Assembly (NCBI RefSeq): GCF_036346855.1
Contig: NZ_CP107841.1
Span: 5,708,001-5,772,000 of the forward strand
Length of the DNA: 64,000 bases
Direction of reading: 5' to 3'
DNA from: Streptomyces europaeiscabiei
Lineage (GTDB): Bacteria; Actinomycetota; Actinomycetes; Streptomycetales; Streptomycetaceae
Part shown: positions 8,711-32,342 of the stretch, one piece after another
Position numbering within the stretch: the stretch's first letter is position 1
How the letters are laid out: each line of letters starts with the position of its first letter
Notes under the pieces: model-generated
What the model saw: the letters and a program-made list of their open reading frames with translations, nothing else
Told to the model about the DNA's origin: nothing
Database searches by the model: none
Position numbers and translations under genes: made by a program

Positions 8711-9111
8711 GGGCGCTGGGGTAGGGCCAGGGCGGCGGGGGGCCGGGGTCCGCGGCAGGGCGCTGGGGTGGCCGGGGTCCCCGGCGGGATGGCGATATGG
8801 CGGGTTGGCGGGACGGGGGTGGGGTCCGGGTGTGTGGGTACTGGCTGAGCGCGGTCGGATCGTCGCCGTCTCGGTCGTCAGCCCGATCGGATCGGTCGCC
8901 GTCTCAGGCGTCGACCTGATCGGATCGGTCACCGTCTCAGGCGTCGACCCGATCGGATCGGTCACCTTCCTGGTCGTCTGCGCGATCGCTTCGATCACCC
9001 GTCCTGGTCGCCCGCCAGTCGGAAGACGACCCCCCGCGCAGGGTTGGCGCCCGCCACTGTGCTCTTATATGCCCAGGTCAGGCCCTGGTTGCGTATAAGG
9101 AAAACATAAGA
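8711..9111. other. G-rich intergenic region upstream of dnaK operon
   Basis: No supported gene. The first 150 bases are G-rich low-complexity sequence. The 33-base repeats at 8852-8984 follow, and then the dnaK control region. Confidence 0.5.
8852..8984. repeat. 33-base tandem repeat, about four copies
   Basis: Copies start at about 8852 (degenerate), 8885, 8918 and 8951 (diverging at its end), each with the core GATCGGATCGGTC. The period is a multiple of three and stays open on the minus strand (TDPIGSTPETV-like peptide), but I see no credible gene there. Confidence 0.65.
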
Positions 9112-13506: not shown

Positions 13507-14277
13507 CTATCCGGCGAGGGCGAGGTTGTGCATCCGGGCGATGCCGAGCATGGCGTGGTGGACGCCGTCGCCCTTGAGACGGCAGTCGCGGAGGATTTTC
13601 CAGGTCTTCATGCGGGCAAAGACGTGCTCGACCCGGGCCCGGACCTGCTTGTGGGACTTGTTGTGCTCCTCTTTCCAGGCCGGGAGTTCGGTCTGGCCGC
13701 GCTTGCGGCGGTGCGGGATGACGAGTCCGGTGCCCGGGTAGCCACCGTCGGCGATCGTGACGGTGTTGCCCACGGCGGCCTTGGCACCGGACTCCTCCCA
13801 CGCCTTGCAGTCGTTGCGGTTCCCGGCGAGCGGCCGGCCGACCACGACGACCAGGCGGGTGTCGGCGTCGATGACGACCTGGTGGTTGGTGGAGTACCGG
13901 TAGTTCTTCGACCGCTCGGCGATGGTGTGATCCCGGGTGGGCACCAGGGTGCCGTCCACGATGAGCACAGCGTCCTTCGCGAACCGCTTACGGGGCTGGA
14001 GCGCGAGCATCGGCCCGAGATGGTCGATGATCCGGTCCGCCGCCGACTTCGACACCCCGAACAGCGGCGCGAGCTGCCGCATGGTCAGGTTCGTGCGCCA
14101 GTAGGCCGCGACCAGCAGGGCGCGGTCCTCCAGCGGAAGGCTCCACGGCCGGCCCCTGCGGACTGTGTCCGCGCCCTCGCGCCGCAGCACCGTCACCAGC
14201 TTCCCGAACTGCCGCGGGCTCAGCCCGGTGAACGGGGCTATCCAGGACGGCTCTGACGCCGTGATCACACCAGCCAC
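13507..14277 (-). CDS. IS5-family DDE transposase
   Basis: A 256-residue intact transposase. An N-terminal helix-turn-helix (MRQLAPLFGVSKSAADRIIDHLG) precedes a DDE_Tnp_4-like catalytic core: Asp in LIVDGTLVPTRDH, Asp in TIADGGYPGTG, and Glu in VRARVEHVFARMKTWKIL. It is transcribed toward hspR. No frameshift is seen, so the element may be active. Confidence 0.9.
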   Translation of the reverse strand: MAGVITASEPSWIAPFTGLSPRQFGKLVTVLRREGADTVRRGRPWSLPLEDRALLVAAYWRTNLTMRQLAPLFGVSKSAADRIIDHLGPMLALQPRKRFAKDAVLIVDGTLVPTRDHTIAERSKNYRYSTNHQVVIDADTRLVVVVGRPLAGNRNDCKAWEESGAKAAVGNTVTIADGGYPGTGLVIPHRRKRGQTELPAWKEEHNKSHKQVRARVEHVFARMKTWKILRDCRLKGDGVHHAMLGIARMHNLALAG

Positions 14278-16554: not shown

Positions 16555-19491
16555 TCAACTCATCTCCGCCAGCCTCTCCTCGATGGGCCCGGCCGAACGC
16601 AGGCGAATGGCCTCTTCGTACAGCTTCCGTTCGTCCTTGTGGTCCAGCCACGGATAGCGGACACGCCAGCGGTCGACGACGTACTGCAGCAGGTCGAACC
16701 GGCCTGCGGCAGCGATCGTGGCTGCGGCGACCAGGCTCTGTCTCGTCGAGAGCTGCGTCTCAGCCGCGTCCTGGTAGTTGCGCTGTCGCACCGCCATCAT
16801 GGCCTGCAGGGCCAGCACCGGCTGCGGGAAGTCCCAGAAGTGCTCTCCGCGGGTCCACGCGGGCAACTCTCTTCCGGACTCGGGAGTCCAGTCCGCGAAG
16901 TCGGCGAGCAGATCCGGATGAATGGTCACGACGTCGTCGCGTGGCCCGAACGGTGTGCCTGAGAGCACCGCTCGCATGTGGGAGCGAAGAGCGGTGGACC
17001 CGTGGAACAGCTCGCGCACCAGTCGGGCGTTGAGCCATGGATCGTCCTGTGCGAGGAGTGCCGGAACCAGCGTTTCGTCCCGCAAGTGCCCCCATCCGAG
17101 GCGACCTTCGCTGCCCGTCAGGGGCCAGAAGAGCCGCCTCGGGTTGAGGAGGATGTCCCACAGCTGACGGTCGCCGTGCCTCACCAACGCCTGGAGTGTC
17201 TCGGCACTGTAGGTGGTCCGGGCAAGGAGGAGACGGACGGGAACGTCGAGCCGGGCCACCGCGGAATCGATGACGGCGCCCGGAGCGAGGCCGAGCAGTA
17301 CGGCGGCGGCATGGTGCTCCACGAGCATTGATGCAGCTTCCGCGGAGGGCGTTTGTTGTTCTTCCCGGGTGGCGGCGTCCAGGAGCGCGGCCAGCGGGCC
17401 CTCGAAGCCGTTGGCGAGCAGGCGCACCGCCTTGGCCCAGTGCGCTGGGAGGATGCTGAGGTGCTCACGCACCTTCTTTGCACTGGCGTCGTCAAGATCG
17501 GGGCCGACCAGGAAATCGGCGGCAGGCAGCACGTCGACTGTCTCCGCGCCGACGGCGAGTTCTACCGCGTGCCGCACAAGGCGCGGCAACGGTGCCATGG
17601 AGTACGGGGTGATGCGGGACAGGTGAGTCCACACGTCGGCCTCGTCCACTCCCGGCTGCGCCGCCCGCGTCTCGTCCAGGACCTGGGCCACGATCCGGCC
17701 GATGTGCTCGTTGCCGACGGCCCTGACGATGCTCCGCACAGGGCGGGCATGCCGCACCACGTCCTCGACGGTCACTCCAGGCACCCAGCCCGGCTGGGCG
17801 GAGGCCGCGTTCACGAGCGCTTGAGGCTCCATGCCTCCCGACGCGGGCGTCCACGGAACGATGCACCGGGAGGCGAGCGTGTCGATGGCGGTGTCTCGGT
17901 TGGCCAGGACATGCTGCAGGTCCAGCGGGGTGAGGTCGGCGTCGGCCAGGGACCGGGCGACATCCTCCGGGCAGTCGTCGTGAGCCAGCAGGATGCGGTA
18001 CCGCGCCAGAGTGAGGTCGCGGTGATCGCTTGCTCGGGGGGAGGAAAGGCGACTGCGCACCAAGTCCCAGTCCACCTGGTACCAGGGATCGCCGGTGATG
18101 GTCCGACCCGCCGCAGCGACCTCGCTCTGTGTGAGTTGGAGGAGGTCGTGCGGCTGCGGCGGGCATGACAGCCGCAGCCACCAGGTGCGCAGAGCCTCGT
18201 CCAGGTGTTCGTCGCGATGCCGGCGGCGCTCTTCGGCGGCGGCCTGGAGCGGACGGACGGATCGGATACGCAGCGACTCGGCACACACGTCGCGAACGTC
18301 CCGGTCCCGGATGCCCGTCGTGCTCTGCGATGTCAGCGCACGCAGGTCGTGGACATGGTCCGACTCCCACAGACGTATGCCGGCGACCAACTGTTGGTAC
18401 GGCGTCAGCACCTCTTCGTCGCCCTGCCAGGAGGCGTGCAGAGCGTGCGCCACGAGGCCCGGCTCGCGGGAGTCGTAGCACAGGCGCAACAGGTCGGTGT
18501 CCCACGGCTCGGACGCTGGGAAGCTGAGTCTGGCCTGTACCGCGTAGGTGCGCGGGAGAGAGGGCTCGGAGGTGGAGCCGAAGGGGCGGCCCTCCAGGAG
18601 TGCCAGACGCGTCGCGGGAGGCAGCCGGCGCTGCGCGTCGGTGGCGCCGATGAGCAGCCACTCGTTGATCCGGGGAACGTCGAGACGGAGGAAGGCGCGC
18701 TCGATGTCCGCGCCGCCGGACGATCCGTGGCTCATGGAGTCGTCACGACGTCCCAGGATGCTCTCCCACACGGCCGGGTTGCCCGACGCGATGAGCAGTG
18801 AAGCGAGCCGGGCACGTAGGTCGGAATCGGCCCCGGCCAGCATTCCCGGGCCGAGGCGAGCAAGAAGCCGCTCCGGTAGATCACCCGGTGCGATGAGACC
18901 CAGCCAGCTCACGTTCTTCGGGTCGACGTGCGTGCGTGACGCGGCCACGGAGGCATCGTGTCGTGCCGCGTGGTCGAGCAGGTCGGGGAGATCTCCGGGG
19001 AAGCCGCGAGCCAGCAGGACGAACGCGGTCTCCCAGGCCCGGACGTCCGAGCCGAGCCGGGCACGAACCCGCTCCTCCACCTCCGGCAGCGGTGAGGTGG
19101 ACCAGGGTTGGCCCGGCATTCGGAAGTGTCCGGCAGGGGTAGTACGCCACTGCTGCTCCACCAGTTTGGACGACACAGCGGAACCACCGTCGCCGAGCAC
19201 CTCGACGAAGTCGCTGTCCAAGCCGGCGATCAGGTCGGCCCGCGTGACGACGAGGGCCGCCTGTCGCGCGGTCAGCCCCCAGTTCTCGTACAGGGCCTCC
19301 ACCTCGTCCGCATCGCCATGTTTGGCGATCCAGTCACGCAATCCCTCCGGCGGCGGGTACCGCCGCTGGTTCAGAAGGTACAGACGGCCCTGTGCTTCCA
19401 TCCGGTCGGCGACCACTGCCGCCGCCGAGGGCGTGGCGTTCTGGAAGAGCCGGACGAACGTCTCGTCGAACTCCTCCTTGCCTTTCGTCAC
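16555..19491 (-). CDS. Large protein of unknown function (alpha-helical)
   Basis: A 978-residue cytosolic protein. The reading frame is open to 19584, but the GTG at 19491 overlaps the stop of the upstream gene in a GTGA and opens MTKGKEEFDETFVRLFQNA, so I take it as the start. The sequence is almost entirely short amphipathic helices with many LLxHAxR and ALLDxATR-type turns, as in HEAT- or TPR-like solenoids. I see no P-loop, no metal site and no membrane segment. It is the last gene of a three-gene minus-strand operon with a VirD4-like membrane protein and an M48 protease, so a scaffold or adaptor role is possible but unproven. Confidence 0.75.
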   Translation of the reverse strand: MTKGKEEFDETFVRLFQNATPSAAAVVADRMEAQGRLYLLNQRRYPPPEGLRDWIAKHGDADEVEALYENWGLTARQAALVVTRADLIAGLDSDFVEVLGDGGSAVSSKLVEQQWRTTPAGHFRMPGQPWSTSPLPEVEERVRARLGSDVRAWETAFVLLARGFPGDLPDLLDHAARHDASVAASRTHVDPKNVSWLGLIAPGDLPERLLARLGPGMLAGADSDLRARLASLLIASGNPAVWESILGRRDDSMSHGSSGGADIERAFLRLDVPRINEWLLIGATDAQRRLPPATRLALLEGRPFGSTSEPSLPRTYAVQARLSFPASEPWDTDLLRLCYDSREPGLVAHALHASWQGDEEVLTPYQQLVAGIRLWESDHVHDLRALTSQSTTGIRDRDVRDVCAESLRIRSVRPLQAAAEERRRHRDEHLDEALRTWWLRLSCPPQPHDLLQLTQSEVAAAGRTITGDPWYQVDWDLVRSRLSSPRASDHRDLTLARYRILLAHDDCPEDVARSLADADLTPLDLQHVLANRDTAIDTLASRCIVPWTPASGGMEPQALVNAASAQPGWVPGVTVEDVVRHARPVRSIVRAVGNEHIGRIVAQVLDETRAAQPGVDEADVWTHLSRITPYSMAPLPRLVRHAVELAVGAETVDVLPAADFLVGPDLDDASAKKVREHLSILPAHWAKAVRLLANGFEGPLAALLDAATREEQQTPSAEAASMLVEHHAAAVLLGLAPGAVIDSAVARLDVPVRLLLARTTYSAETLQALVRHGDRQLWDILLNPRRLFWPLTGSEGRLGWGHLRDETLVPALLAQDDPWLNARLVRELFHGSTALRSHMRAVLSGTPFGPRDDVVTIHPDLLADFADWTPESGRELPAWTRGEHFWDFPQPVLALQAMMAVRQRNYQDAAETQLSTRQSLVAAATIAAAGRFDLLQYVVDRWRVRYPWLDHKDERKLYEEAIRLRSAGPIEERLAEMS

Positions 19492-21623
19492 CGAGAGCCA
19501 CCCGACTGCTGACCGGGCCAGTTCGGCGGCGGCCCCGGGGCCCAGCTGCCCGGATGCTGGGGCGGCTGGACCGGGGGCATCCACTGGGCCTGTGGGGCAG
19601 CCGGAGCGTAAGGCTGCTGAGGCGCCCCCGTGTGAGGCTGTGGGGGCGTCGAGGGGTGTTGCACGGGGGCGTAAGGCTGCTGCGGAGCGACATACGCCTG
19701 ATCGGCGGTGATGGCGGGAGCGGGGATGTACTGCGGCGGTGTGTCGAAGCGGGGCAGCGGCTGCGTGCTCACCCGGTCCAGGAGGACGACGTTGGGGTTG
19801 CAGTCGCCGGCGTGCACCTGAACGGCACCACCGGGCTGCCGTTCCACCACCAGCAGGTTGAACTCGGCGAGCGACTGGAGCTGCGTGGGTTCGAGGGCGT
19901 ACTCGTAGACGCGCTGCCGCCCGGTCGCCAGGCTCGTGCTGTCGCTGTCTCCGGTCGTGTGGGTGGTGGACTCGTTCGTGGTGTGGGTGACGCTCATGGA
20001 GGTGCCGGTCGTCTCGCTGTAGCTGCCGCCGGAGTTGGTGGAGTCCGACGTCGAGAGCGGGTTGAACCAGCCCTGGTAGGTCGTGGAACTGCTGCTGCCC
20101 CAGTTCCGGCCGTACGTCTCCGAGTGGCTGGTGGTGGTGCCGCGGCTTACGGAGGAGCCGATCGTCTTGGCGACGGAGGTGTTGACGGTCCGGCCCTCGG
20201 TGTCCGTCAGCGAGTGCAGGACGAAGGAGTGGTGGCGGCCCAGGAAGTCGGCGGCGACCGTGGCTTCCTGGTGGTTGCCGAGCCGCATGAAGGCGACCGT
20301 TCCGCCGCCGATGAGCTCCTCGCCGGCATCCCGCAGATGCGAGTGCACGAAGGTGAGTTGGGCGCCCCGGCGCTCACACACCTGGGCCAGCTGTTCGAGG
20401 TGACGACGCTGGAGGCCCTGCTCGCCCAGCATCACCACGACGCACGGGGCCTCCTCCTGGAACGAGGAGAGCCGCCGCATCACGCTCTGCAGGGCGAGGT
20501 CGGCCAGCAGCTCCGCGCTCGCCGAACCCGCGCCGAAGTCCAGTGCGACGCAGGTCAGATAGCCGGGCCCACGCCCCTCACGGGCCGTTCCCAGCTGCTC
20601 CAGCGGGTGCACGAAGGACGCCAGCCGGATGAGGCTGTCCCGCATCTGGTCCTTGTTCTTGTCGCTGAACAGATCGTCCGCGATGCGGTTGCGCTCCTCC
20701 CTGCTCAGCGCCTTCGTGTCGTCGGCCTCGCCCACCAGGATCCGCAACCCGGCACCGAGCCGCGCCAGGGTCACGTCCTCGCCCAACGCGCCGCACAGTT
20801 GGGTGAGGATCCGGGTGTAGACGGCACGGTCGGCCCGGGCCGACTCGGGGCTGTCCCCGTGGATGGCCTCGACCAGGGCCTGCACGAGTTCGTGCGGCGC
20901 GAGCCCGCTCACGATGCCGCTCTCCGCCGTACGGCTGGGCAGCAGCTGCACGTCCACGGGCACGCCGCTCGCCTCGGCGAGAACGGACAGCTCACGGCAC
21001 ACCAGGGCCTGGGTCAGGTCCAGCACGATCAGCGGCCGCTGGCGCAGCGTCGAAGCGCCGAAAACCGTGAGGAAGCCCTCGCGACCGCGCTGGCTGCCGC
21101 CGAAGACGTCCAGCCGCCGGGTGCCCGCTCCGAAGGGCAGCGCGCCCCAGGCGTCCAGGCCGGCGATCCACTGCGTCTGCTGGGCCTCGTGGAGTGTCCA
21201 GCGTTGGTGCCACGACTGCCAGTCGTTCTGGAAACGTTCCTCCAGCGCCTTCGCCTGGGCGGTGCGGGCACGGGTGGCGGCGGTGTACCGCAACGAGGCG
21301 TAGAGAGCCCGCACCACCAGGATGCCGACGATGACACCGCCGATGGTGAGCATCACCGTGAAGACCAGGCTCAGCAGGTAGAACACCACGGCGACGACGA
21401 TGCCGATCCTCAGCGCGGAGCTGATGCGGTCCTTGCGGTCCAGCCTGGCGGCCTGCACACGGTTCTCGTAGCTGCCGTCCAGCTCCGTGCGCTGCGGCTC
21501 GGCTTCGACGAACGGCTGACGGAGCGACTCGGGGTCGCGGTAGGTCCAACCGACGCGCTGGCCGGCGTCGAACAGTCTTTGATACGGGCCGAGCTGCCCG
21601 GCCTCGGTGTTCTCGATCGTCAT
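19488..21623 (-). CDS. Membrane protein, VirD4/TraG-like fold without Walker A
   Basis: A 711-residue protein. Two membrane helices (about 68-110, ALRIGIVVAVVFYLLSLVF and TIGGVIVGILVVRALYA) are followed by a coiled-coil stretch. The soluble domain resembles the late half of VirD4/TraG/HerA ATPases: APCVVVMLGEQGLQRRHLEQLAQVCERRGAQLTFVHSHLRD resembles the Walker B-to-sensor segment, and AFMRLGNHQEATVAADFLG the conserved R-finger region. No GxxGxGK[ST] is present. A Ser/Thr/Gly-rich insertion (about 520-590) and a Pro/Gln-rich tail (about 640-711) follow. It may be an inactive partner of the HerA-type ATPase encoded divergently. Start ATG at 21623, 18 bases past the M48 stop. Confidence 0.65.
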   Translation of the reverse strand: MTIENTEAGQLGPYQRLFDAGQRVGWTYRDPESLRQPFVEAEPQRTELDGSYENRVQAARLDRKDRISSALRIGIVVAVVFYLLSLVFTVMLTIGGVIVGILVVRALYASLRYTAATRARTAQAKALEERFQNDWQSWHQRWTLHEAQQTQWIAGLDAWGALPFGAGTRRLDVFGGSQRGREGFLTVFGASTLRQRPLIVLDLTQALVCRELSVLAEASGVPVDVQLLPSRTAESGIVSGLAPHELVQALVEAIHGDSPESARADRAVYTRILTQLCGALGEDVTLARLGAGLRILVGEADDTKALSREERNRIADDLFSDKNKDQMRDSLIRLASFVHPLEQLGTAREGRGPGYLTCVALDFGAGSASAELLADLALQSVMRRLSSFQEEAPCVVVMLGEQGLQRRHLEQLAQVCERRGAQLTFVHSHLRDAGEELIGGGTVAFMRLGNHQEATVAADFLGRHHSFVLHSLTDTEGRTVNTSVAKTIGSSVSRGTTTSHSETYGRNWGSSSSTTYQGWFNPLSTSDSTNSGGSYSETTGTSMSVTHTTNESTTHTTGDSDSTSLATGRQRVYEYALEPTQLQSLAEFNLLVVERQPGGAVQVHAGDCNPNVVLLDRVSTQPLPRFDTPPQYIPAPAITADQAYVAPQQPYAPVQHPSTPPQPHTGAPQQPYAPAAPQAQWMPPVQPPQHPGSWAPGPPPNWPGQQSGGSR

Positions 21624-21641
21624 GGGAGGGCTCCAGGCCGG

Positions 21642-23063
21642 TCAGGCGACGAAGGTCTCGATCGCGCGTATGCGCTTGTGCAGCGGCGGATGTGTGGACA
21701 TGAGGCGCGCCATCGTTCGCTGCTTGCGGCGGTCGTCGTCGGCTCCCGCCGCGTGCCACGCGGTGAACACGGAGACCAGGAGCGGACCGTAGCCGATCAG
21801 GCCCGCGAACCGGTCGGCCCGCAGCTCACCCTGGCGCCCGGACCAGGCGAGCAGGAACGGTACGGCGTAGAGGGCCAGCGCGGCCGGGAAGGTGAAGAGC
21901 AGGGCGATGGCCAGTACGCCGAGGAACAGCACGAAGAGCCCCGCGAGCACCTCGGAGATCGCGGCGAGGACGCGGATCACGAGCCGCAGAGCGCTCATGA
22001 CGAGCCGGGCGGGCACGGCGTACCAGTGGCCGAGCAGACCGGCCCACGCGTGGCCGCCGACATGATGGCCCAGCTCGTGGGCGAGCACGGCGGCCAGTTG
22101 CTGGGGCGGGAGACTGCGCATGGCGCCGCGCGTGACCCCGACGATGTGGCCTGCGGCGGCGGAGGCGTTCAGCTCGTCGGTGTCCTCCATCCACAGGTCG
22201 TACTGGGAGCCGTCGACGCCGGCCCGTTGGGTGACCTCGTACCAGATCGGCTGGAGCACGGCGAGTTCGCTGCCCAGGGGCTCACGCATCTTGAAGTACA
22301 GCTTCGCCAGGCCGCGTTCGGTCGGCCGGTTGAACACCAGGGCACCCGATGCGAGCCACGCGACGACGAACGCCACGTCCACACCGCTCGGCATGGACAG
22401 CGAAATCAGGAACATCACCAGCAGGCTGCCCAGGAAGAGGGGGATGTTGAGCAGCAGGGTGGTCACGGAGGAGGAGTCGGCTCCGCGGCGAACCTCGGGG
22501 GTGCCCACCGGAGCGTGGGCAGCGGGGAACTCGTCACCGGGGGTGGTGGCGACGGGGGCGGGCACAGGTGGTGGGGGCGGTGCGTAGTACACGGGCTGGG
22601 GCGTCTGCGGAAGCGGTGCTTGCGGAGCCGCGTACAGCGGGTGGTGAGGTGCCTGGGGTGCCTGGGGTGACATCTGCGGGGTGCTGTACGGCTGTTGAGC
22701 CGCTTGAGGGGGCGCCGGATAGTGCTGCTGCGGGTGCTGCTGCGGGTGCGCGTGCGGGGGCGGATACGAAGGCTGATACGGCGGCGGCGCGAACTGCTGG
22801 GGTGGAACCGCCTGCTGGGGCGGAACCGCCTGGTAGGGCGGCTGCGCCGGAGGCGGGTGGGCAGGGCCCGGTGCGTACGTCTGCGAGGGCTGGGCCGGGG
22901 CACCGTACGGCGGCATGGCAGGCGGTGCGTCCGGAGCCTGGTACGCGGGCGGCACCTGGTGCGGCTGGCCGGGGGGAGGGTAGCCGTGGGGGAAGTCGCC
23001 CTGGGGAGGATGGCCGGGGCCGACCGGCCGGCCCGGTTGGTGCGGATCGACAGGATGGGTCAC
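21642..23063 (-). CDS. M48-family membrane metalloprotease with Pro-rich N-terminus
   Basis: A 473-residue protein. The first 170 residues are Pro/Gln/Tyr-rich and disordered. A hydrophobic pair follows (SVTTLLLNIPLFLGSLLVMFLISL, then VAFVVAWLASGALVF). The HtpX/M48 catalytic domain has the zinc site HELGHH (about 329-334) and the third ligand region GELRADRFA. Two more hydrophobic segments (LAGLFVLFLGVLAIALLFTFPAALALYAVPFLLAW) lie between them, as in HtpX. The GTG at 23063 (MTHPVDPHQPG) is chosen over the ATG at 23111; neither has a strong ribosome site. It is the first gene of the minus-strand operon. It probably cleaves membrane or exported substrates of the locus. Confidence 0.8.
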   Translation of the reverse strand: MTHPVDPHQPGRPVGPGHPPQGDFPHGYPPPGQPHQVPPAYQAPDAPPAMPPYGAPAQPSQTYAPGPAHPPPAQPPYQAVPPQQAVPPQQFAPPPYQPSYPPPHAHPQQHPQQHYPAPPQAAQQPYSTPQMSPQAPQAPHHPLYAAPQAPLPQTPQPVYYAPPPPPVPAPVATTPGDEFPAAHAPVGTPEVRRGADSSSVTTLLLNIPLFLGSLLVMFLISLSMPSGVDVAFVVAWLASGALVFNRPTERGLAKLYFKMREPLGSELAVLQPIWYEVTQRAGVDGSQYDLWMEDTDELNASAAAGHIVGVTRGAMRSLPPQQLAAVLAHELGHHVGGHAWAGLLGHWYAVPARLVMSALRLVIRVLAAISEVLAGLFVLFLGVLAIALLFTFPAALALYAVPFLLAWSGRQGELRADRFAGLIGYGPLLVSVFTAWHAAGADDDRRKQRTMARLMSTHPPLHKRIRAIETFVA

Positions 23064-23291
23064 GTAAGAGGTCCGCCCTGGGAAGGAAGTGGGCCGAAAA
23101 GGCAGCCACATGTGGACAGTTGAGAAATGACCGTCCCGAGGGCGGCAGCACGTACGCCTCTGGTGATGTGAACTCGCCCCCGTGACCGCCGAAGCGGCAG
23201 CCAGTCATTGATTCGCAGCCGAAACATGCTGCATGAATTCGCCCCCCGAGTCCAGTTGGAACCACCGGTAACGAAGTCACAGTTGCAAGGC

Positions 23292-23320
23292 TTGGCCTGG
23301 GACCCGACCGGCTCTAGGGT
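23292..23320 (+). promoter_or_regulatory. Promoter upstream of HerA-type ATPase operon
   Basis: TTGGCC (23292-23297), 17 bases, TAGGGT (23315-23320), a good vegetative match. It predicts a transcript start near 23327, more than 300 bases before the ATPase ATG, leaving room for the leader ORF at 23351. Confidence 0.5.
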
Positions 23321-23350
23321 GTAGGCGCAAGATCGACAACGGGGGAGACG

Positions 23351-23641
23351 TTGCGAACCGCACTGCTTGCGCACGATTCTGGTCAACTCGCTGATGACGC
23401 CCGTTTCTTCGCGCCGGCTGACAACTCCGGCAACTGGGGCGGTCCGCCCGTTTGCCGGAGTGAAGTCGACGAAGGGGCTGCTTCTTCTGCCGCCTTGGAG
23501 CGGCGCGGCAAAGGGCCTGACCGTCCGCATCATGTGAGCCCGGCCCGGTATCGCGGACGCGCGGGCCAGTCGTATCCGGTCGAGACACAGCGGCCGCGGC
23601 TGCGCGCCGATCAGCGAGCGAGAGCGGTCCGCACCCCATGA
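23351..23641 (+). CDS. Possible 96-residue leader protein of the ATPase operon
   Basis: GGGGGAG lies three bases before a TTG that opens LRTALLAHDSGQLADDARFF. The frame stays open to a TGA that overlaps the ATPase ATG in an ATGA, the same coupling used elsewhere in this operon. It starts about 24 bases after the predicted transcription start. Against it: codon third positions are less GC-rich than in neighbouring genes and no domain is visible. The alternative is a long untranslated leader. Confidence 0.4.
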   Translation: MRTALLAHDSGQLADDARFFAPADNSGNWGGPPVCRSEVDEGAASSAALERRGKGPDRPHHVSPARYRGRAGQSYPVETQRPRLRADQRARAVRTP

Positions 23642-26403
23642 ACACCACGCCGTACGGCGGCACATGGCAGCGTTTCCTCGACATGGACGCCTGCCTGCTG
23701 CGAGAGGTCCCTCGCCAACGCCTCACGGACGACCGGCCAGGCGGTCCCGGCGACGACCTGCACGCCCAGCGGCTCGCCGCCCTGGTCTCCGCGCATCACG
23801 CACGGCGCTCCGAAGACCACACGGGCGGTGCGGTGTTCGTCGGTTGGGCGCGCAGCGCGGCGGACCGGCCCATCGACGTGATGGTCGGAGGGAGCGCTCT
23901 GCTCGGCGGTCGTGCCGACGCCGACGGCGGCAGCACTCTGCTGCGACTGCCCGCAGGCGCACGCGGGCCGGCCCAGCCGAAGGGAACCGCGGCATCCCTG
24001 TTCGCCGGCTTCCCGCACTGGAGTGCCGTCGCGGGTGTCACCGACGGGCTGCTCGTCGACGCGGAGCCGAACGCCACCGGGAACGGCGCCGCACGGCAGC
24101 GGCCCAGCCTGGAGGACTGCCTCCTGGCGGTGTGGCAGGAGCCCTTCGCCTGGATGGTGTTCGCCGAACCGGTGCCCGCCGACGAACTCGACGACCTCAC
24201 CGGCGACATCGCCGACGAACAGCGCCGCGCCATGTCCAAGGCGGACGGCTCGCCCGAGTACGCCATCGCGGCGACCCGGTTGGAGCGACGCCACAAGGAC
24301 CTGGCCAAGGCGGCGGCCACCGGACTGTGGCGGATACGTCTGCTGGGCGGCGGACGTACGCCGGAGGAGGCAGCCCGTGTCGCCGCGCTCGTCTGCGCGT
24401 CGGCGGACCTGGAGGGGCTGCCCTACGCCCTCCGGCCGACCGGGCGGGTCGGGGACCTGCCCACGGTGCTCGGCGGAGCTCTCCCCGCCCCTGAGGAGTA
24501 CCCGTTCCATGCCGGATCCGATCTGCTGGCCGCTCTGGCCCGGCCGCCCGCCCAGGAGATACCGGGCGTACGGTTCGCGCTGCGCCCGGAGTTCGACGTC
24601 ACCCCCGAGACCACCGGTCGTCCGGCCACGGCCGACACCCCGTCTCCGGTCCGGCTCGGGTCGGTGCTCGACCGCAACCGCAGCCCCGTGGGTGACCTGG
24701 AACTGACCCGCTCCACCCTCAACCGCCACACCTTCGTGTGCGGGGCGACGGGCGGCGGCAAGTCGCAGACCGTGCGCGGACTGCTGGAGGCGGCCACCCA
24801 TGCGGGCATCCCGTGGCTGGTGGTGGAGCCGGCCAAGGCCGAGTACCGGTTCATGTCGGCACGGCTCGGCGACACGAGCGATGTCGTCGTCATCAAACCC
24901 GGCGACCCCGACACCCTCCCGGCCGGCCTGAATCCCCTGGAGCCCTCGGCGTTCGCGAACGGCGAGCGCTTCCCGCTCCAGACGCACCTCGACATGGTGC
25001 GCGCCCTGTTCCTGGCCTCCTTCGACCCGCAGGAGCCGTTCCCACAGGTCCTGAGTGCCGCGCTGACCCGCTGCTACGAGGACCTCGGCTGGGACCTCAC
25101 CCTCGGCGAACCGCTCGTGCCCGGCACCGAGCCGCGCTACCCCACCCTTGAGGACCTGGAGCACACGGCCCTCAAGGTCGTGACCGACATCGGCTACGGC
25201 AAGGAGGTCGCCGACAACGTCCAGGGTTTCATCAAGATCCGCCTGGCCAGCCTGCGGCTCGGCACGACCGGCCGCTTCCTGGAGGGCGGCCGCCCGCTCG
25301 ACTTCGGTGAACTCCTGCGCCGCAACGTCGTCTTCGAGATCGAGGACGTCGGCGACGACAAGGACAAGGCGTTCCTGATGGGCACGATCCTCATCCGGCT
25401 CGTCGAGTACCTGCGCATGGAACAGCGCGTGACCCGCCGACTGTCCTTCCCCTTGCGGCACTTGAGCGTCTTCGAGGAGGCGCACCGGCTGCTCCGCCGC
25501 TCGGAGGAGGGCGGCGCGAGCGCCCACGCGGTGGAGATGTTCGCCGGTCTGCTGGCCGAGATCCGGGCGTACGGCGAGGGCCTGATCATCGCCGACCAGA
25601 TCCCGAGCAAGCTGTTGCCCGACGTCATCAAGAACACGGCGGCGAAGGTCGTCCACCGTCTCCCGGCCCAGGACGACCGCGAGGCGGTCGGCGCGACCAT
25701 GAACATCACGGCGGCCCAGTCCGAGTATCTGGTCACCCTGCGGCCGGGCGAGGCGGCCGTCTTCACGGACGGCATGGACTATCCGCTGCTGGTCCGGATG
25801 AAGGACGGGACGGACCGCGAGGACGCGGGGGCGATCCGGCCGGCGTCGGCGGCCGCGCTGACGGGCGAGCGCAGTCGGGCGTGCGGCCCCTGCTGCACTC
25901 CGGAGCCGTGCACTCTGCGCGACCTGCGCAGGGCGCAGCGGCTGATGGAACAGCCCGAGCTCCGGATCGTGTTGTGGGCGGAGATGGCGGTCGCGGCGCA
26001 TCTGCTGGGGTGGACCACGCCGTTGCCGGGCGAGGCGATGCGGCGGGCCCTGGAGCCGCATCGGGGGCGCCTCCTGGACTGCGCGATCGGCCAGGCTGCG
26101 GACCGTGCGGTGCACAGCCGGGTCGGAGCCCCCACAGCCCCGGAGGTCCTCGCCGAGCACGTGGCCGCGATGATGCGCGCCCAACTCGACGGACAGGATC
26201 CGTGTCCGGTGGCGGAGCCGCGGTTCAAGGCGCGGAAGGGGACGAGTACGCGTTTCTACTACCACGGGGGTCGTACGACGCCGTCCGTGGTGGAGCGGAT
26301 CGTCGGGTGCGCGGATCCGTCCGAGGGGTGGGCCGAGCGGTTCGCCCGGGCGCTCGTGTGCTTCGCCCGGGTGCCTCGGCGGACGAGGGACGAGCGGGGA
26401 TGA
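23638..26403 (+). CDS. HerA/FtsK-superfamily ATP-binding protein
   Basis: A 921-residue protein. An N-terminal domain of about 350 residues is of unknown fold. The ATPase core follows, with Walker A GATGGGKS (369-376), TFVCGATGGGKSQTVRGLLEAA, the family segment VVEPAKAEYRFM, DVVVIKPGDPDTLPAGLNPLEP, Walker B LSVFEEAH (about 609-616) and the sensor region LIIADQIPSKLLPDVIKNTAAKVVHRLPAQDDREAV. This is the HerA/DUF87 ATPase fold used in DNA pumping, conjugation and several anti-phage systems. A CCTPEPC cysteine cluster (about 753-759) may bind metal. No membrane helix is present. It is encoded divergently from the M48/VirD4-like operon and overlaps a 16-codon ORF at its 3' end. Confidence 0.85.
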   Translation: MNTTPYGGTWQRFLDMDACLLREVPRQRLTDDRPGGPGDDLHAQRLAALVSAHHARRSEDHTGGAVFVGWARSAADRPIDVMVGGSALLGGRADADGGSTLLRLPAGARGPAQPKGTAASLFAGFPHWSAVAGVTDGLLVDAEPNATGNGAARQRPSLEDCLLAVWQEPFAWMVFAEPVPADELDDLTGDIADEQRRAMSKADGSPEYAIAATRLERRHKDLAKAAATGLWRIRLLGGGRTPEEAARVAALVCASADLEGLPYALRPTGRVGDLPTVLGGALPAPEEYPFHAGSDLLAALARPPAQEIPGVRFALRPEFDVTPETTGRPATADTPSPVRLGSVLDRNRSPVGDLELTRSTLNRHTFVCGATGGGKSQTVRGLLEAATHAGIPWLVVEPAKAEYRFMSARLGDTSDVVVIKPGDPDTLPAGLNPLEPSAFANGERFPLQTHLDMVRALFLASFDPQEPFPQVLSAALTRCYEDLGWDLTLGEPLVPGTEPRYPTLEDLEHTALKVVTDIGYGKEVADNVQGFIKIRLASLRLGTTGRFLEGGRPLDFGELLRRNVVFEIEDVGDDKDKAFLMGTILIRLVEYLRMEQRVTRRLSFPLRHLSVFEEAHRLLRRSEEGGASAHAVEMFAGLLAEIRAYGEGLIIADQIPSKLLPDVIKNTAAKVVHRLPAQDDREAVGATMNITAAQSEYLVTLRPGEAAVFTDGMDYPLLVRMKDGTDREDAGAIRPASAAALTGERSRACGPCCTPEPCTLRDLRRAQRLMEQPELRIVLWAEMAVAAHLLGWTTPLPGEAMRRALEPHRGRLLDCAIGQAADRAVHSRVGAPTAPEVLAEHVAAMMRAQLDGQDPCPVAEPRFKARKGTSTRFYYHGGRTTPSVVERIVGCADPSEGWAERFARALVCFARVPRRTRDERG

Positions 26404-26450
26404 ACAGGGGGAACAGAGCCGCTGTGATTATTGAGGAGGACGGTACGTGA
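26400..26450 (+). CDS. 16-residue coupling ORF between ATPase and protease genes
   Basis: The frame MNRGNRAAVIIEEDGT starts in an ATGA overlapping the ATPase stop and ends in a GTGA overlapping the start of the calpain-like gene. The GAGGAGG ribosome site of the protease gene lies within it. The exact double overlap suggests translational coupling from ATPase to protease. Whether the peptide has a role is unknown. Confidence 0.45.
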   Translation: MNRGNRAAVIIEEDGT

Positions 26451-28111
26451 GCGAGCTTCAGGAGGCCGATCGTCCACCTGTGCCGGAACTCGAAGCCCCC
26501 AGACCGTGGGAGGCGGGAGAGACCGGCGCCCCCGCGGAGCCGAGGGCCGCCGATTCCTCCACCGCGGTGAAGGACAGCAGGACCGGCGAGGGGTTTCTGG
26601 AGCCGACCGAGCCCGAGAAACCGACGGAATCCGCAGAGCCGCAGGAGCCCGCCGAGCCAGATGAGGTGCCACTGGAACCCGAGGAGCTGGAGAGGCCAGA
26701 GGGGTCGGTGGACTCGGCCGAGGCGTGGGGCGCGGGCGAACCCGAGGAGCCGTTGGAGTCGTCGTACTGGAGTGCCGAAAGCGACACGGACAGTCCTCAG
26801 ACGGCGGAGGAGCCCGAGGAGCCCGAGGGGGCGGAGGGGGCGGAGGGGGCGGAGGGGGCGGAGGGGGCGGAGGGGGCGGAGGGGGCGGAGGGGGCGCACG
26901 GTTCTTGGAGGTCAGCGGAGTCCGGCGAGCAGGATGGCGAAGGCGGCACGGACAGCCTTGAGTCGGAGGAGCCGGTCGAGCCGGAGGAATCTTCGGAGCC
27001 TGCGGAGTCCGAGGAGTCGGATGCCGAAGAGGGCGAGGCCAGTCCGCAACTGGAAGAACAGTCCGCGGACTCGGTCGAGGCCCCGGACTCCCCGCAGTCG
27101 GCGGAGGCCGCCGAGCCCACACAGCCCACTGAGGTTGCACAGCCCGTCGAGTCCGGGGAGCCGGACGAATCGGTCAAGCCCGGTGACTCCGGCGACAAGA
27201 TCCAGAAGACGGTCGATCGTCCTCCCATCGAGAACATGTACTTCGATGACGGGGAGGAAATCGAAGGACTGACTTACGGTGACCCGATCAACGAGCGCCC
27301 GGAGGGCAAGGTCCCGCTCTTCGACGGGCCGCCCACGCGGGAGCAGACCGCGCAGGGCAGTCTGAACGACTGCGGTGTCATCGCGTCGCTTGGAGCTGTT
27401 GCGGGGCACCGCCCCGAGGCCATCGAGAACGCCGTTCAGGAGAACCCCGACGGCACCTACACGGTGACCCTCCACGACACGGAGCGCGGAGCGGACGGCA
27501 TCTGCCGGGCCACCGACCAACGGATCGAACTCCTCGTCGAGCCGGACCTCCCCGTCGTCGAGGACGATCCCCATACGCCGGTCTTCGCACAGATGGAAGG
27601 GACGGCGTGGGCCGCAGTGCTGGAGAAGGCGATGGCCGCAGTCGACCAGACGTGGGACGACAAGCGCACGAACGACTGGGACGCGGAGTGGAAGGCGGAC
27701 ACGGATGTCCCCAACGGTCCCGCGCCGGTCGGCTACGAACGGCTCAACCAGGGCTCCAGTGTGTGGGAACAGACCGAAATACTCACCCAGCTCACGGGCA
27801 GGGACAGCATCGTCTATCCGTTCCCGCAGGGTGAGGGCGCCGGCCCCGCACTGGAGGGGCACCTGCAGCAGCAACTCGCGGACAACAAACCGATCTTGGC
27901 CGCATCGCGCATGCTCAACGAGGACGCCGACGAAGAAGAACTGCCCTACGAGCTGGTCCCGAACCACGCGTACGAGGTGGTCGGGGCGCAGGACGGCATG
28001 GTCCACTTGCGCAACCCTTGGGGTGTCGACGATCCGGAGGAGATGTCGACTGAGGAGTTCATCAGGAACTTCAGCGACCAAGGGTGGGGTCTCTACGGCA
28101 CGCTCACCTAG
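26447..28111 (+). CDS. Calpain-like (C2) cysteine protease with acidic repeat N-terminus
   Basis: A 554-residue protein. Residues 1-270 are extremely acidic, low-complexity Glu/Pro/Ser/Ala sequence including eight EGA repeats. The C-terminal domain has the calpain triad in order: Cys309 in QGSLNDCGVIASLGAV, His507 in LVPNHAYEVVGA and Asn523 in HLRNPWGVDD, followed by STEEFIRNFSDQGW as in C2 proteases. There is no signal peptide. The GTG at 26447 has GAGGAGG nine bases upstream. It is translationally linked to the HerA-type ATPase, so it may be an effector or a substrate of that machine. The acidic arm might be a transport signal or an inhibitory tail (inference). Confidence 0.8.
   Translation: MSELQEADRPPVPELEAPRPWEAGETGAPAEPRAADSSTAVKDSRTGEGFLEPTEPEKPTESAEPQEPAEPDEVPLEPEELERPEGSVDSAEAWGAGEPEEPLESSYWSAESDTDSPQTAEEPEEPEGAEGAEGAEGAEGAEGAEGAEGAHGSWRSAESGEQDGEGGTDSLESEEPVEPEESSEPAESEESDAEEGEASPQLEEQSADSVEAPDSPQSAEAAEPTQPTEVAQPVESGEPDESVKPGDSGDKIQKTVDRPPIENMYFDDGEEIEGLTYGDPINERPEGKVPLFDGPPTREQTAQGSLNDCGVIASLGAVAGHRPEAIENAVQENPDGTYTVTLHDTERGADGICRATDQRIELLVEPDLPVVEDDPHTPVFAQMEGTAWAAVLEKAMAAVDQTWDDKRTNDWDAEWKADTDVPNGPAPVGYERLNQGSSVWEQTEILTQLTGRDSIVYPFPQGEGAGPALEGHLQQQLADNKPILAASRMLNEDADEEELPYELVPNHAYEVVGAQDGMVHLRNPWGVDDPEEMSTEEFIRNFSDQGWGLYGTLT
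26825..26896 (+). repeat. 9-base minisatellite, eight perfect copies
   Basis: Eight identical GAGGGGGCG units inside the acidic arm of the calpain-like gene, each encoding Glu-Gly-Ala. Gain or loss of units keeps the reading frame, so length variation between strains is expected. Confidence 0.9.
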
Positions 28112-28169
28112 AGCATGCAAACAACCGAGGAAAGCACTCCCACTCGGGGTATTTGGAGAGGAGATTCGT

Positions 28170-28490
28170 ATGGCGCGGGACAAGTTGGTGATCCGCTCCG
28201 GGCAGCTCACGAGGACCGGAGAGGGAAAGGTCGGCGGTGTGAGCAGCACGTCGGCCACCGAGTCGAGACCGGCCCGCGTGAAGCTGGCCGTTGTCGACGC
28301 GGACGGCACGGAACGCAAGGAGCGCCTGGAGCTGAACGACACCTTCCCCGTGGGCTCGGAGACCTGGCGCTTGGTGGACATCACACACTTCACCGGCGGC
28401 CGGTGGGCGGCCGTGGCTGTTCCCGCAGACGCACCCTCCTCGGACACCGTGCGCGAGGATTCCACCTCTCCGGAGGCCCCCGACGCATGA
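28170..28490 (+). CDS. Small conserved-looking protein of the ATPase/protease operon
   Basis: A 106-residue protein, MARDKLVIRSGQLTRTGEGK, with a compact beta-rich pattern (ARVKLAVVDADG, KERLELNDTFPVGSETWRLVDITHF, WAAVAV) and an acidic tail. GGAGAGGAG precedes the ATG, and it follows the calpain-like gene by 58 bases in the same direction. It resembles small actinobacterial DUF6406-type proteins, but I could not verify that. It might be an inhibitor or chaperone of the protease; this is only a guess from position. Confidence 0.65.
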   Translation: MARDKLVIRSGQLTRTGEGKVGGVSSTSATESRPARVKLAVVDADGTERKERLELNDTFPVGSETWRLVDITHFTGGRWAAVAVPADAPSSDTVREDSTSPEAPDA

Positions 28491-28646
28491 CGTGGTCATG
28501 ATTGCTTTGGGTGAGCGGTGGTCGCGTGACAGCGCGCAGGGGCGCGCCGATCGGGGGAAAGCGCAAAGGGGCGCAGGCCAAGGGCTGATGGGTTCTCCTG
28601 CTGGGTTGTTTCCACACCCTCGATGCTGTCTACCGCGCTGAACCGC
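28491..28646. other. Intergenic segment before IS
   Basis: No supported gene or hairpin terminator. It is the left flank of the IS at 28650. Confidence 0.4.
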
Positions 28647-28649: not shown

Positions 28650-29550
28650 GGAGTCCTTGCAGAAAGATCGTGTTGTGGCACGGTGGAGATGTACGTGATC
28701 CCGTCTTCTGTGGGGTGTGAGCATGGCGCGGCGGAAGCCGTGGGAGATCAGCGACGAGTTGTGGGCGGTGATCGAGCCGCTGTTGCCGAAGCATGAGCGG
28801 CGGTTCCGGTACCCGGGGCGCAAGCGGATCGATGACCGCAAGACGCTCCAGGGAGTCCTGTTCGTCCTGTACACCGGTGTCCAGTGGGAGTTCCTGCCGC
28901 AGGAGTTGGGGTTCGGTTCAGGTCCCACCTGCTGGCGGCGGCTGGCCGAGTGGCAGGAGGCCGGAGTGTGGGAGGAACTGCAGCGGGTGCTGCTGGACCG
29001 GTTGCGGGCTGCGGACCGCCTGGACTTCTCCCGCGCCACGATCGACGCCTCGCACGTGCAGGCCAAGCGGGGGCGTGGCAGCCCAAAAGTCGGTCCGAGT
29101 CCGGTTGACCGCGGGCGGCCGGGCTCGAAGCATCACGTGCTGACCGACGCGCATGGCACCCCGCTGCGGGTGTCACTGACCGGCGGTCACCGCCACGATG
29201 TCACCCAGCTTCTGCCGCTGGTCGACGGGATGCCGCCGGTGCGGGGCAAGCGGGGCCGGCCCCGGCGCAAGCCCCGGACCCTGTATGCCGACCGCGGCTA
29301 CGACTACGACGTCTACCGCCACCGGCTGCGTGAACGCGGCATCACACCGAAGATCGCCCGACGCGGACAGCCGCACGGTTCTGGCCTGGGCAGGGTCAGG
29401 TGGGTTGCCGAGTCCGCCATCGCCTGGCTCCACGGCCCCCGCCGCTTACGGACCCGCTGGGAAGCCCGAGACGACATGCACGACGCCTTCCTCCAACTCG
29501 CCCACTGCATGATCCTCGCCCGCAAGAACCCAGCATTCTGAAAGGACTCC
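28650..29550. mobile_element. IS5-family insertion sequence (901 bases)
   Basis: Terminal inverted repeats GGAGTCCTTGCAGAA (28650-28664) and, on the other strand at 29536-29550, GGAGTCCTTTCAGAA, differing at one position. A three-base TAA target duplication flanks them. One intact transposase fills the element. The TNA-type duplication fits the IS1031-like branch of IS5. Confidence 0.9.
28717..29541 (+). CDS. IS5-family transposase
   Basis: A 274-residue single-frame transposase. The N-terminal DUF4096-type region is EISDELWAVIEPLLPKHERR and GVLFVLYTGVQWEFLPQELG. The DDE core follows: Asp in ATIDASHVQAKRG, Asp in LYADRGYDYD and Glu in RWVAESAIAWLHGPRRLRTRWE. It is intact, reading across the whole element. 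GTG 28717 or ATG 28723 may be the true start. Confidence 0.92.
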   Translation: MSMARRKPWEISDELWAVIEPLLPKHERRFRYPGRKRIDDRKTLQGVLFVLYTGVQWEFLPQELGFGSGPTCWRRLAEWQEAGVWEELQRVLLDRLRAADRLDFSRATIDASHVQAKRGRGSPKVGPSPVDRGRPGSKHHVLTDAHGTPLRVSLTGGHRHDVTQLLPLVDGMPPVRGKRGRPRRKPRTLYADRGYDYDVYRHRLRERGITPKIARRGQPHGSGLGRVRWVAESAIAWLHGPRRLRTRWEARDDMHDAFLQLAHCMILARKNPAF

Positions 29551-30534: not shown

Positions 30535-30882
30535 ATGACGGCACGGGACACTCCGCAGGGCGCTCCACGGGACACCGCACGCGGCAACGGCATCTCGGTG
30601 ACCCATGATCTGGAGCCGCACGACTGGTCGAACGAGGAGACCGCGGCGTACGAGGCGGCGATCGAGGCCGTCAACGGGGCGGTCGGCGCCTACAGCGCGC
30701 TGATCGCCGCGGAGGAGGACAAGGACGCCCCCGACCCCGCCGTCATCGAGGCCGCGCGCGCCGCGCAGGGGCGGCTGGCGAAGGAGCGTGAGCGGCTGCG
30801 CTCGGCCGACCGTGAGCAGATCGCCGAGGCCCGCTCACGCTACGCCCGGCTCGCCCGCGAGGTCCTGGCGAGCCTCACGTGA
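30535..30882 (+). CDS. Putative antidote/partner of zeta-type toxin
   Basis: A 115-residue acidic helical protein (EETAAYEAAIEAVNGAVGAYSALIAAEEDK, then a long helix AARAAQGRLAKERERLRSADREQIAEARSRYARLAREVLASL). GGAGGG precedes the ATG. Its stop overlaps the toxin GTG in a GTGA. Small helical proteins directly upstream of zeta kinases act as epsilon-like antitoxins in the known systems. The sequence is not obviously epsilon, so the antitoxin role is inferred from position and coupling. Confidence 0.6.
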   Translation: MTARDTPQGAPRDTARGNGISVTHDLEPHDWSNEETAAYEAAIEAVNGAVGAYSALIAAEEDKDAPDPAVIEAARAAQGRLAKERERLRSADREQIAEARSRYARLAREVLASLT

Positions 30883-32342
30883 CCGACCCGGCCGACCGCA
30901 GGCGCATGACCGATCCGGCCGAGCACCAGCGTGTGACGGATCCGGCCGAGCTCCAGCACATGGCCGCCCCGGCCGATCGCCTGCCCGATCCGCCCGCGCG
31001 TGTGATCGATCCCGCCGAGGTGGAGCGGCACCGGCTGTCCGACGCCGAGAACCGGCGGATCTTCCGTGAGCGGATCGTCCCCGACCTGCTGGCGGGGCGC
31101 ACCGGGCAGGAGACACCGACCGTGGTGTTCCTGGTCGGCCAGCCCGGTGCGGGCAAGAGCAGGGTCACCGAGATGGTGGCCGGCGTACTCGACCGGCACG
31201 GTGGCTTCGCGGACGTCGACAGCGACCTCTACAAGCCCTACCACCCCGCGTACGCCCGGCTGATGGCCCAGGACGACACCCTGATGGCCGCCTACACCCG
31301 CGCCGACGGGCGGGCCTGGATGGCCTTGGCCGAGGCGTACGTCCGTGAGCACGGGCTGCACGCGATCATCCAGGAGACCTCGCAGAACGCGCGGGCCGTG
31401 GAAGAGAAGATGCGGGCCTACCGGGACTCCGGCGCGCGCGTCGAGGCCCTGTTCATGGGGGTGCCGCAGGCGATGAGCAACCAGGGCATCGTCAACCGGT
31501 ACTACGAGCAGCTCGCGGACCGCGGCCAGGGGCGGCTGACCGTGCAGTCCAACGCCGACGAGTCCTACGCCGGCATCCTCGAACTCGCCGACCGTGTCGA
31601 CCGGGGCGCCCTCGCCGACCTCGCGAGTGTGTACCGCCGCGGTGAGAGCAAGCCCCGCTACAGCAACTCCCTCGACGGCACCGGCGACTGGACCGGTCCG
31701 CCGGAGCTGCGCCAGGCCCTCGCCGCGGAACGCGTACGCCCCTGGACGGCGGCCGAGAGCGACTCCTTCGTCACCACCCAGCTGCGCCTGCGCGAGACCG
31801 CTCGGGCGCTGGGCCCCGAGTGGCCGGGCCGGCTCACCCGCATCGAGGACCAGGCCCGCCCCCTGCTGACCCCGGCCTCAGCGGCACAGCTGACCCCGAC
31901 ACCAGCCCCGGCCTCAGCGGCACAGCTGACCCCGACACCAGCCCCGGCCCCAGCGGCACAGCAGGCTCCCAAGGCAACTCCGGCCTCAGCGGCACAGCAG
32001 GCTCCCGAGGAAGCCCCGGCCTCAGCGGCACAGCAGGCCCTCACGGGAACCCTGACCGCGCCGTCGGCGACCCCGGCTGTTCCGCCGGCAGCCCCGACAG
32101 CCCCCTCGGCTGCTCCGGCTACGCCTCCGACGGCCCCCGCCGCGTCGCCGCCTCCGACGGCCCCCGCCGCGTCGCCGTCGCCCTCGGCCGCCGCCGCGCG
32201 CTCCCGCAGCACCCCACGCCCCACCAGCCCCACCAGCCCCACCACCCCGCAGTCTCCGAGTCAGGGGGCGCGCCCCGGTCCCAGCCGCGCGACACCTCCG
32301 CAGGGACCGAGCGGCCCCGAACCCAACCGACACGGCCGATAA
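30879..32342 (+). CDS. Zeta-toxin-family kinase with long Ala/Pro tail
   Basis: A 487-residue protein. The N-terminus is repetitive (TDPAD, TDPAEHQ, TDPAELQ units). The zeta-toxin kinase domain follows (about 50-290), with Walker A GQPGAGKS (87-94), the acidic catalytic segment FADVDSDLYKPYHP, AIIQETSQNARAVEEKMRAYRDSGARVEALFMGVP and NRYYEQLADRGQGRL. Members of this family phosphorylate UDP-N-acetylhexosamines and block peptidoglycan synthesis. After about residue 330 comes an Ala/Pro/Gln-rich tail of about 150 residues, built partly from 36-base repeats, that zeta toxins lack. The GTG start overlaps the partner gene stop. Confidence 0.85.
   Translation: MTDPADRRRMTDPAEHQRVTDPAELQHMAAPADRLPDPPARVIDPAEVERHRLSDAENRRIFRERIVPDLLAGRTGQETPTVVFLVGQPGAGKSRVTEMVAGVLDRHGGFADVDSDLYKPYHPAYARLMAQDDTLMAAYTRADGRAWMALAEAYVREHGLHAIIQETSQNARAVEEKMRAYRDSGARVEALFMGVPQAMSNQGIVNRYYEQLADRGQGRLTVQSNADESYAGILELADRVDRGALADLASVYRRGESKPRYSNSLDGTGDWTGPPELRQALAAERVRPWTAAESDSFVTTQLRLRETARALGPEWPGRLTRIEDQARPLLTPASAAQLTPTPAPASAAQLTPTPAPAPAAQQAPKATPASAAQQAPEEAPASAAQQALTGTLTAPSATPAVPPAAPTAPSAAPATPPTAPAASPPPTAPAASPSPSAAAARSRSTPRPTSPTSPTTPQSPSQGARPGPSRATPPQGPSGPEPNRHGR
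31867..32040 (+). repeat. 36-base repeats in the zeta-toxin tail
   Basis: About five units with the core GCCTCAGCGGCACAG, encoding PASAAQ followed by LTPTPA or QAPxxA. The first two copies are nearly identical and later ones diverge. Confidence 0.7.

Follow-up and report, generated by a model that had tools for sequence, protein, structure and literature searches.

We analysed a 64,000-nucleotide stretch (the window) of the 10.95 Mb genome of Streptomyces europaeiscabiei, in which six genes form two divergent operons. On the plus strand lies HERA (23638-26403), which encodes a 921-residue HerA/DUF87-type ATPase. Behind it follow a gene for a 554-residue calpain-like protease (26447-28111), a predicted toxin that we call the cargo, and a gene for a 106-residue DUF6406 protein (28170-28490; PF19944, 2.2e-12), the predicted immunity partner of the calpain. 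On the minus strand lie an M48 membrane metalloprotease gene (21642-23111; PF01435, 4.7e-19), TRAG (19488-21623), encoding a 711-residue membrane protein that lacks a Walker A motif and is predicted to fold like VirB4/VirD4, and a gene for a 978-residue, predicted all-helical protein (16555-19491). The operons are separated by 526 bases between the M48 gene and HERA (23112-23637), inside the 300 to 600 bases estimated by a first-pass annotation of this DNA, and the six open reading frames that it reported are all real.

An intact motor paired with a motor-like partner

HERA matches both HerA_C and DUF87 above the Pfam cut-offs. The Walker A motif predicted at residues 369-376 is present (GATGGGKS), followed by a Walker B-like VFEEAH (611-616) and a cysteine cluster, CGPCCTPEPC, at residue 749. 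With a HerA core and an intact Walker A, HERA belongs to the FtsK-HerA ATPase superfamily. The Walker A motif is present in all 93 HERA-type proteins longer than 700 residues in the fetched loci.

TRAG is different. At the expected place, residues 187-193 read VFGASTL, which bears out the claim that Walker A is missing, a motif that a VirD4 coupling protein would have as an active ATPase. A Walker A-like pattern occurs in a single one of its 91 relatives, at residue 91. The predicted structure matches VirB4 and TrwB, with a reasonable model core and low overall confidence. TRAG also carries a serine/threonine-rich insert and a proline-rich tail. Its sequence identity is 94% with the Streptomyces stelliscabiei protein (L003; L-numbers denote the stretches of relatives that we compared) and 84% with that of Streptomyces scabiei (L004).

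HERA and TRAG occur together. Genes and families were counted with a simple gene caller, BLAST clusters and hidden Markov models. Among 48 loci from genome contigs with a TRAG alignment, HERA is found in 43, and three of the other five stretches end at contig ends (L009, L019 and L041; 13.0, 3.7 and 8.4 kb). Conversely, TRAG is found in 41 of 43 stretches with a strong HERA match (E <1e-150), at most 3 kb away in 38; the exceptions are L056 and L085. This count sets aside 12 of 55 stretches, 11 with E >1e-150 and one (L079) in which TRAG was called and the HERA gene was not. Thus the proposed pairing of an ATPase that bears its active site with a VirD4/VirB4-like membrane partner lacking Walker A holds in both directions. 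The two genes are mostly divergent in Streptomyces and Actinomadura; in other loci they stand head-to-tail with overlapping or nearly touching ends. Linkage that is kept despite a change in orientation argues for a joint function.

The pair is patchily distributed. TRAG occurs in 5 of 61 near relatives, HERA in 5 of 396 genomes of a phylum sample (E 1e-60), and HERA or closer paralogues in 33 of 296 genomes of a class sample (E 1e-40). A further HerA, distant from HERA (39% identical) and accompanied by another calpain and DUF6406, is encoded in the genome of the window (L058). This actinobacterial HerA type (37-39% identical; L057-L061, L078) has a different partner, a protein of 278-342 residues with two hydrophobic segments, which in L058 ends in a proline-rich tail.

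The gene behind HERA is exchangeable

The calpain assignment of the first-pass annotation stands (PF00648, 2.1e-11). The cysteine, histidine and asparagine motifs begin at residues 303, 506 and 521 and are kept in all nine aligned calpains, which places the protein in calpain family C2. The calpain domain is C-terminal; the N-terminal half is acidic and proline-rich (44% Asp, Glu or Pro over 260 residues). Pfam finds Peptidase_C2 and a weak Collagen match only, and thus none of the WXG/LXG domains of type VII secretion.

Sister species carry different cargos. Between the window and S. scabiei four pieces align at 85-91% over 19695-26354, which ends 49 bases before the last base of HERA, and the alignment resumes only at 29780. 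In the unaligned interval S. scabiei encodes a 219-residue Scabin-like protein (3.3e-37) in place of the calpain and DUF6406 of the window. Both of these genes are retained in S. stelliscabiei (26893-28495 aligned at 91%).

The same architecture recurs more widely. In many relatives the next gene after HERA, which frequently starts within a four-base overlap with the HERA stop, encodes a long acidic or poly-proline N-terminus and a differing C-terminal domain. By Pfam, these domains are calpain (the window, L005, L007, L008 and L058; by similarity to the window calpain also L003, L006 and L051), ADP-ribosyltransferase exoenzyme (L010, L062), Scabin-like (L004), tuberculosis-necrotizing toxin (L061), EndoU nuclease (L086), WHH nuclease (L060), YwqJ deaminase (L104, L108) and RHS repeats (L042, L049); RelA/SpoT (L063) and ribonuclease (L096) matches fall below the cut-off. 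Hence eight domain types above cut-off share one position behind actinobacterial HERA, in addition to LHH at L072, which is the pattern of polymorphic toxins.

A Pfam scan of 30 genes directly behind HerA, including those of the window and of an Escherichia coli and a Lactococcus locus, finds a toxin-type domain in 19 (17 above the curated cut-off), a proportion that is no rate since the genes were chosen mostly for their N-termini. A different set, the 19 distinct toxin-bearing loci left after near-identical loci are collapsed, includes L003, L006 and L051 and omits the window, L072 and L073.

We also counted open reading frames of at least 150 residues that start between -30 and +120 bases from the HERA stop and contain at least 30% Asp, Glu or Pro, a threshold fixed after the data were seen. 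They occur in 32 of 99 HERA loci, at least two of these being spurious reading frames (L029, L109), and behind 55 of 1293 other genes (Fisher p 3.8e-17). After near-identical loci are collapsed (102 HERA loci into 94 clusters at 95%), the count is 30 of 91. Three of the 102 loci were dropped because their sequence ends at HERA; the window is not among the 99, and its cargo would pass (Asp, Glu and Pro fraction 0.47).

A small gene follows the toxin gene at many loci; Pfam confirms SUKH there only at L072. Small genes of family f35 (L018, L028, L048), in tandem in some loci, may be separate immunity genes, as may two small genes behind the L046 cargo. The L064 cargo contains a presumably lipase-like GHSLGA motif, and the next gene encodes ankyrin repeats.

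Calpain and DUF6406 travel together

The small partner gene is real, as claimed, and best read as the 106-residue DUF6406 protein starting at 28170. Of 119 genomes, 10 contain DUF6406 (8 of them over the cut-off), at 14 places in total. The 12 places that we looked at are the window, L058, L051, one near L059 and eight in seven new stretches; those in genomes G081 and G083 were left out. Calpain-coding sequence lies beside DUF6406 in nine of the 12 (the window, L058, L051, one of two places in L127, and L129-L133). Of the remaining places, L128 has fragments of a calpain end, the copy near L059 has no calpain and an internal stop of its own, and the other place in L127 has no calpain adjoining.

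Some of these calpains sit on other scaffolds. In L127 (9062-15784) a 2240-residue protein begins with a WXG100-type region, contains papain-fold deamidase domains (a deaminase match falls below the cut-off) and ends in a calpain, with DUF6406 behind. In L129 the calpain ends a 1649-residue protein with the same middle domains. Such reuse is as expected of a toxin-immunity unit. Judging from the sequences, the calpain is likely a toxin and DUF6406 its immunity partner, both roles being predicted.

L131 (about 7556-8771, minus strand) holds a calpain frame with a proline-rich leader like that of L058, together with DUF6406. HERA and TRAG were not called in this stretch and HERA lies elsewhere in the genome, so that the pair is possibly an orphan cargo.

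Accessory genes and surroundings

The two other genes are less constant. The M48 protease has the expected HELGH motif (residue 345) and its Pfam match, and a proline-rich N-terminus; its gene precedes TRAG by 18 bases in the same orientation. M48-family genes are frequent and not universal (28 of 48 TRAG stretches). The 978-residue protein starts, as described, on a GTGA that overlaps the TRAG stop, and its predicted model is indeed all-helical (mean predicted local distance difference test score 81.2); comparison with structures in the PDB gives no convincing fold match. In S. stelliscabiei and S. scabiei, the two nearest relatives, no sequence next to TRAG aligns to this gene. Hence the TRAG-side end of the locus is also variable. 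In both species other genes (family f38) stand in its place. In genome G020 the 978-residue gene lies on a different contig from the TRAG-linked HERA. The proposal that all six genes form one system is therefore not supported: the 978-residue gene is not kept beside TRAG in these relatives, the calpain is exchangeable, and M48 is not universal. We take M48 and the 978-residue protein as accessory.

The locus does lie between two insertion sequence elements, with DDE transposases on either side (13507-14268 and 28717-29541). To the left are genes that we take to be dnaK, grpE, dnaJ and hspR. To the right lies a gene for a 487-residue zeta-toxin family protein (30879-32342; PF06414, 4e-36). On a Streptomyces plasmid (L071, 5518-7059) a zeta-toxin family gene contains a match to the HERA C-terminus, and the gene after it begins acidic and proline-rich.

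HerA genes in other phyla

A HerA gene followed by an HNH-type nuclease gene occurs on plasmids of E. coli (L072, 4342-8599), Lactococcus (L073, 4429-8629), Treponema (L123, 3810-8160) and Exiguobacterium (L122, 4146-8072), with the nuclease domain checked by Pfam for the first two. A SMI1/KNR4 gene comes next in three of the four (not in Lactococcus), and two dynamin-family genes precede HerA in L072, L073 and L123. In Ruminococcus (L121) a 515-residue gene of unknown type stands behind HerA. We count the recurring order of HerA, putative toxin and small gene as apparent convergence that would support a role of HERA in toxin handling.

Interpretation

What we observe, namely the pairing of the genes, the lack of Walker A in TRAG, the architecture of the cargo, its exchange between sister species and the reuse of calpain with DUF6406, leads us to lean towards the following explanation, which we hold to be reasonably probable. 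HERA and TRAG are joined to an exchangeable cassette, here a calpain that is likely a toxin with DUF6406 as its likely immunity protein, and the two machine proteins would probably drive the toxin through the membrane of the producer. A picture in which HERA would thread the cargo and TRAG would be its membrane dock agrees with the leader, with the lack of Walker A in TRAG and with the linkage. A HERA hexamer would grip the long, probably disordered N-terminus of the cargo and use ATP hydrolysis to thread it through, or past, a membrane-anchored TRAG ring. M48 might perhaps trim or maintain the membrane parts. The C-terminal domain would take effect within a neighbouring cell; DUF6406 would shield the producer itself.

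A broader claim is a conceivable extension, to which we give slightly less than even credence: HERA and TRAG could be the core of an undescribed protein-export system, in which a motor on a membrane pseudo-ATPase ring recognises a disordered acidic or poly-proline leader and exports interchangeable antibacterial toxins, with parallel versions using dynamins or other partners on plasmids of other phyla.

Several findings weigh against toxin export, besides the choice of the scanned genes, the late threshold and the spurious reading frames mentioned above. The scan finds no Pfam domain in 11 of its 30 genes (L040, L046, L048, L055, L056, L059, L064, L077, L080, L097, L107). Two TRAG stretches that are not cut by contig ends lack HERA (L011, L043), and so do all three further TRAG stretches fetched to probe such exceptions (L134-L136). 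The order of HerA and toxin is not clear in Photobacterium (L074) and in plasmid DUF87 loci (L067-L070). Among the neighbouring genes, scanned in part, we identified no part that would span the cell wall or enter the target. Finally, HERA and TRAG stand without an adjacent toxin in most Actinomadura loci, in about ten loci with a Mur-ligase-like gene behind HERA, and in a dozen or so loci of family f92. Toxin handling may thus be neither the only nor the original role of the pair. In these lineages either the toxins, if any, are encoded elsewhere, or HERA and TRAG do something else.

TRAG and HERA lie upstream of the conserved Mur-ligase-like gene in L065, L090-L094, L098 (with an extra gene between), L099 and L101-L103. 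The names of this gene and of the DUF1361-like membrane gene that neighbours toxin-free loci are presumptive, given by recognition.

The first-pass annotation suggested a translocation or defence machine with a protease effector. Its translocation half is close to the explanation that we favour; nothing we found points specifically to defence. Known defence systems include some with HerA ATPases, variable effectors are common in defence, and the locus has mobile surroundings. In PADLOC, HERA has matches to HerA models (2.8e-17 for the best) and to mad8 (8.8e-15). HERA and TRAG might then detect an invader and release a toxin that acts inside the cell and is normally kept in check by the small partner, an anti-phage abortive infection that we consider unlikely. 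PADLOC has no match for TRAG, M48, the calpain or DUF6406 and a weak one (0.024) for the 978-residue protein. Calpain and DUF6406 also sit on a WXG100-type scaffold. Intercellular polymorphic toxins characteristically use RHS, tuberculosis-necrotizing toxin, WHH/LHH, EndoU, YwqJ and ADP-ribosyltransferase domains that are followed by a small gene or SUKH, as set out in part by Zhang et al. (2012; PMC3482391).

The toxin-free contexts, conserved in Actinomadura and other families, are what one would expect if HERA and TRAG were a housekeeping membrane machine of some Actinomycetota, with toxin cassettes inserting at a tolerant site behind HERA. We judge this improbable: across diverse genera the cargo starts at the same place, often in the four-base overlap, and the order of HerA, toxin and small gene recurs with other partners on plasmids of other phyla. 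A conjugation-like DNA transfer apparatus with the toxin as an addiction or guard module, suggested by the VirB4/TrwB-like fold of TRAG and by some relatives on plasmids, is very improbable: conserved chromosomal contexts are found among the genome loci, and of 19 plasmid records that match TRAG, 16 (most of them from Streptomyces clavuligerus) are typed as non-mobilizable.

If HERA and TRAG do export toxins, the consequences reach further. How Actinomycetota export toxins that lack a known signal is an open question. According to the part of a 2025 review considered here, nearly all known functions of Gram-positive type IV secretion systems are DNA translocation, and dedicated effector translocation is a long-standing question (PMC12857230). 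A conserved motor and pseudo-motor with a swappable toxin cargo makes such translocation directly testable. The unnamed families TRAG and DUF6406 gain a definite role that can be tested. HerA ATPases, which are familiar from DNA repair and from defence, would be linked to toxin handling in several phyla.

Comparison with known systems

The literature searched yielded no general description of a toxin machine built on HERA and TRAG, and the export route of this locus is likely not yet described. The locus resembles polymorphic toxin systems, which have an exchangeable C-terminal toxin with the immunity gene behind it, an arrangement predicted here, and several of the same families (Zhang et al. 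2012; PMC3482391, in part). That text names HerA/FtsK ATPases for type VII secretion and FtsK-related ones for type IV secretion; in the portion considered, its HerA-type motor is the YueA-like one of type VII secretion, unlike HERA. The word calpain does not occur in the first 300,000 of its 357,715 characters.

Type VII secretion, as far as the same portion describes it (PMC3482391), also combines a motor of the HerA superfamily (YueA/EccC) with toxin cargo, in the form of WXG/LXG substrates. The calpain and DUF6406 even occur behind a WXG100-type N-terminus. The window cargo differs in its acidic, proline-rich N-terminus without WXG/LXG by Pfam, and the motor in having TRAG as its partner.

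Type IV coupling proteins and VirB4, as treated in part of PMC12857230, resemble TRAG in predicted fold and membrane anchor and HERA in ATPase superfamily; TRAG differs in lacking Walker A. In the part of PMC12691689 considered, an alarmone synthetase of Streptomyces albireticuli without a signal peptide lies beside TrwB, TrwK and TrwI genes, read there as type IV secretion. A Streptomyces antimycoticus plasmid (L063) similarly encodes TRAG, HERA and the cargo with the RelA/SpoT match below cut-off. The S. albireticuli genes may be a HERA/TRAG system, which is a guess; the published part describes this one case and no general machine with other cargos (PMC12691689).

Compared by the titles of their structures, the HerA-SIR2, HerA-DUF4297 and HerA-NurA complexes share the HerA ATPase core and differ in their partners, which at our locus are a membrane pseudo-ATPase and the predicted toxin with its small partner. 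Neither PADLOC nor Pfam matches a SIR2, DUF4297 or NurA-type partner on the proteins of the locus. Streptomyces umbrella toxins are reportedly secreted as lectin-bearing particles, unlike the HERA/TRAG cargo, and we know of no HerA partner for them. What they have in common with the cargo proposed here is that they are antibacterial protein toxins directed against competitors (PMC11062931, in part).

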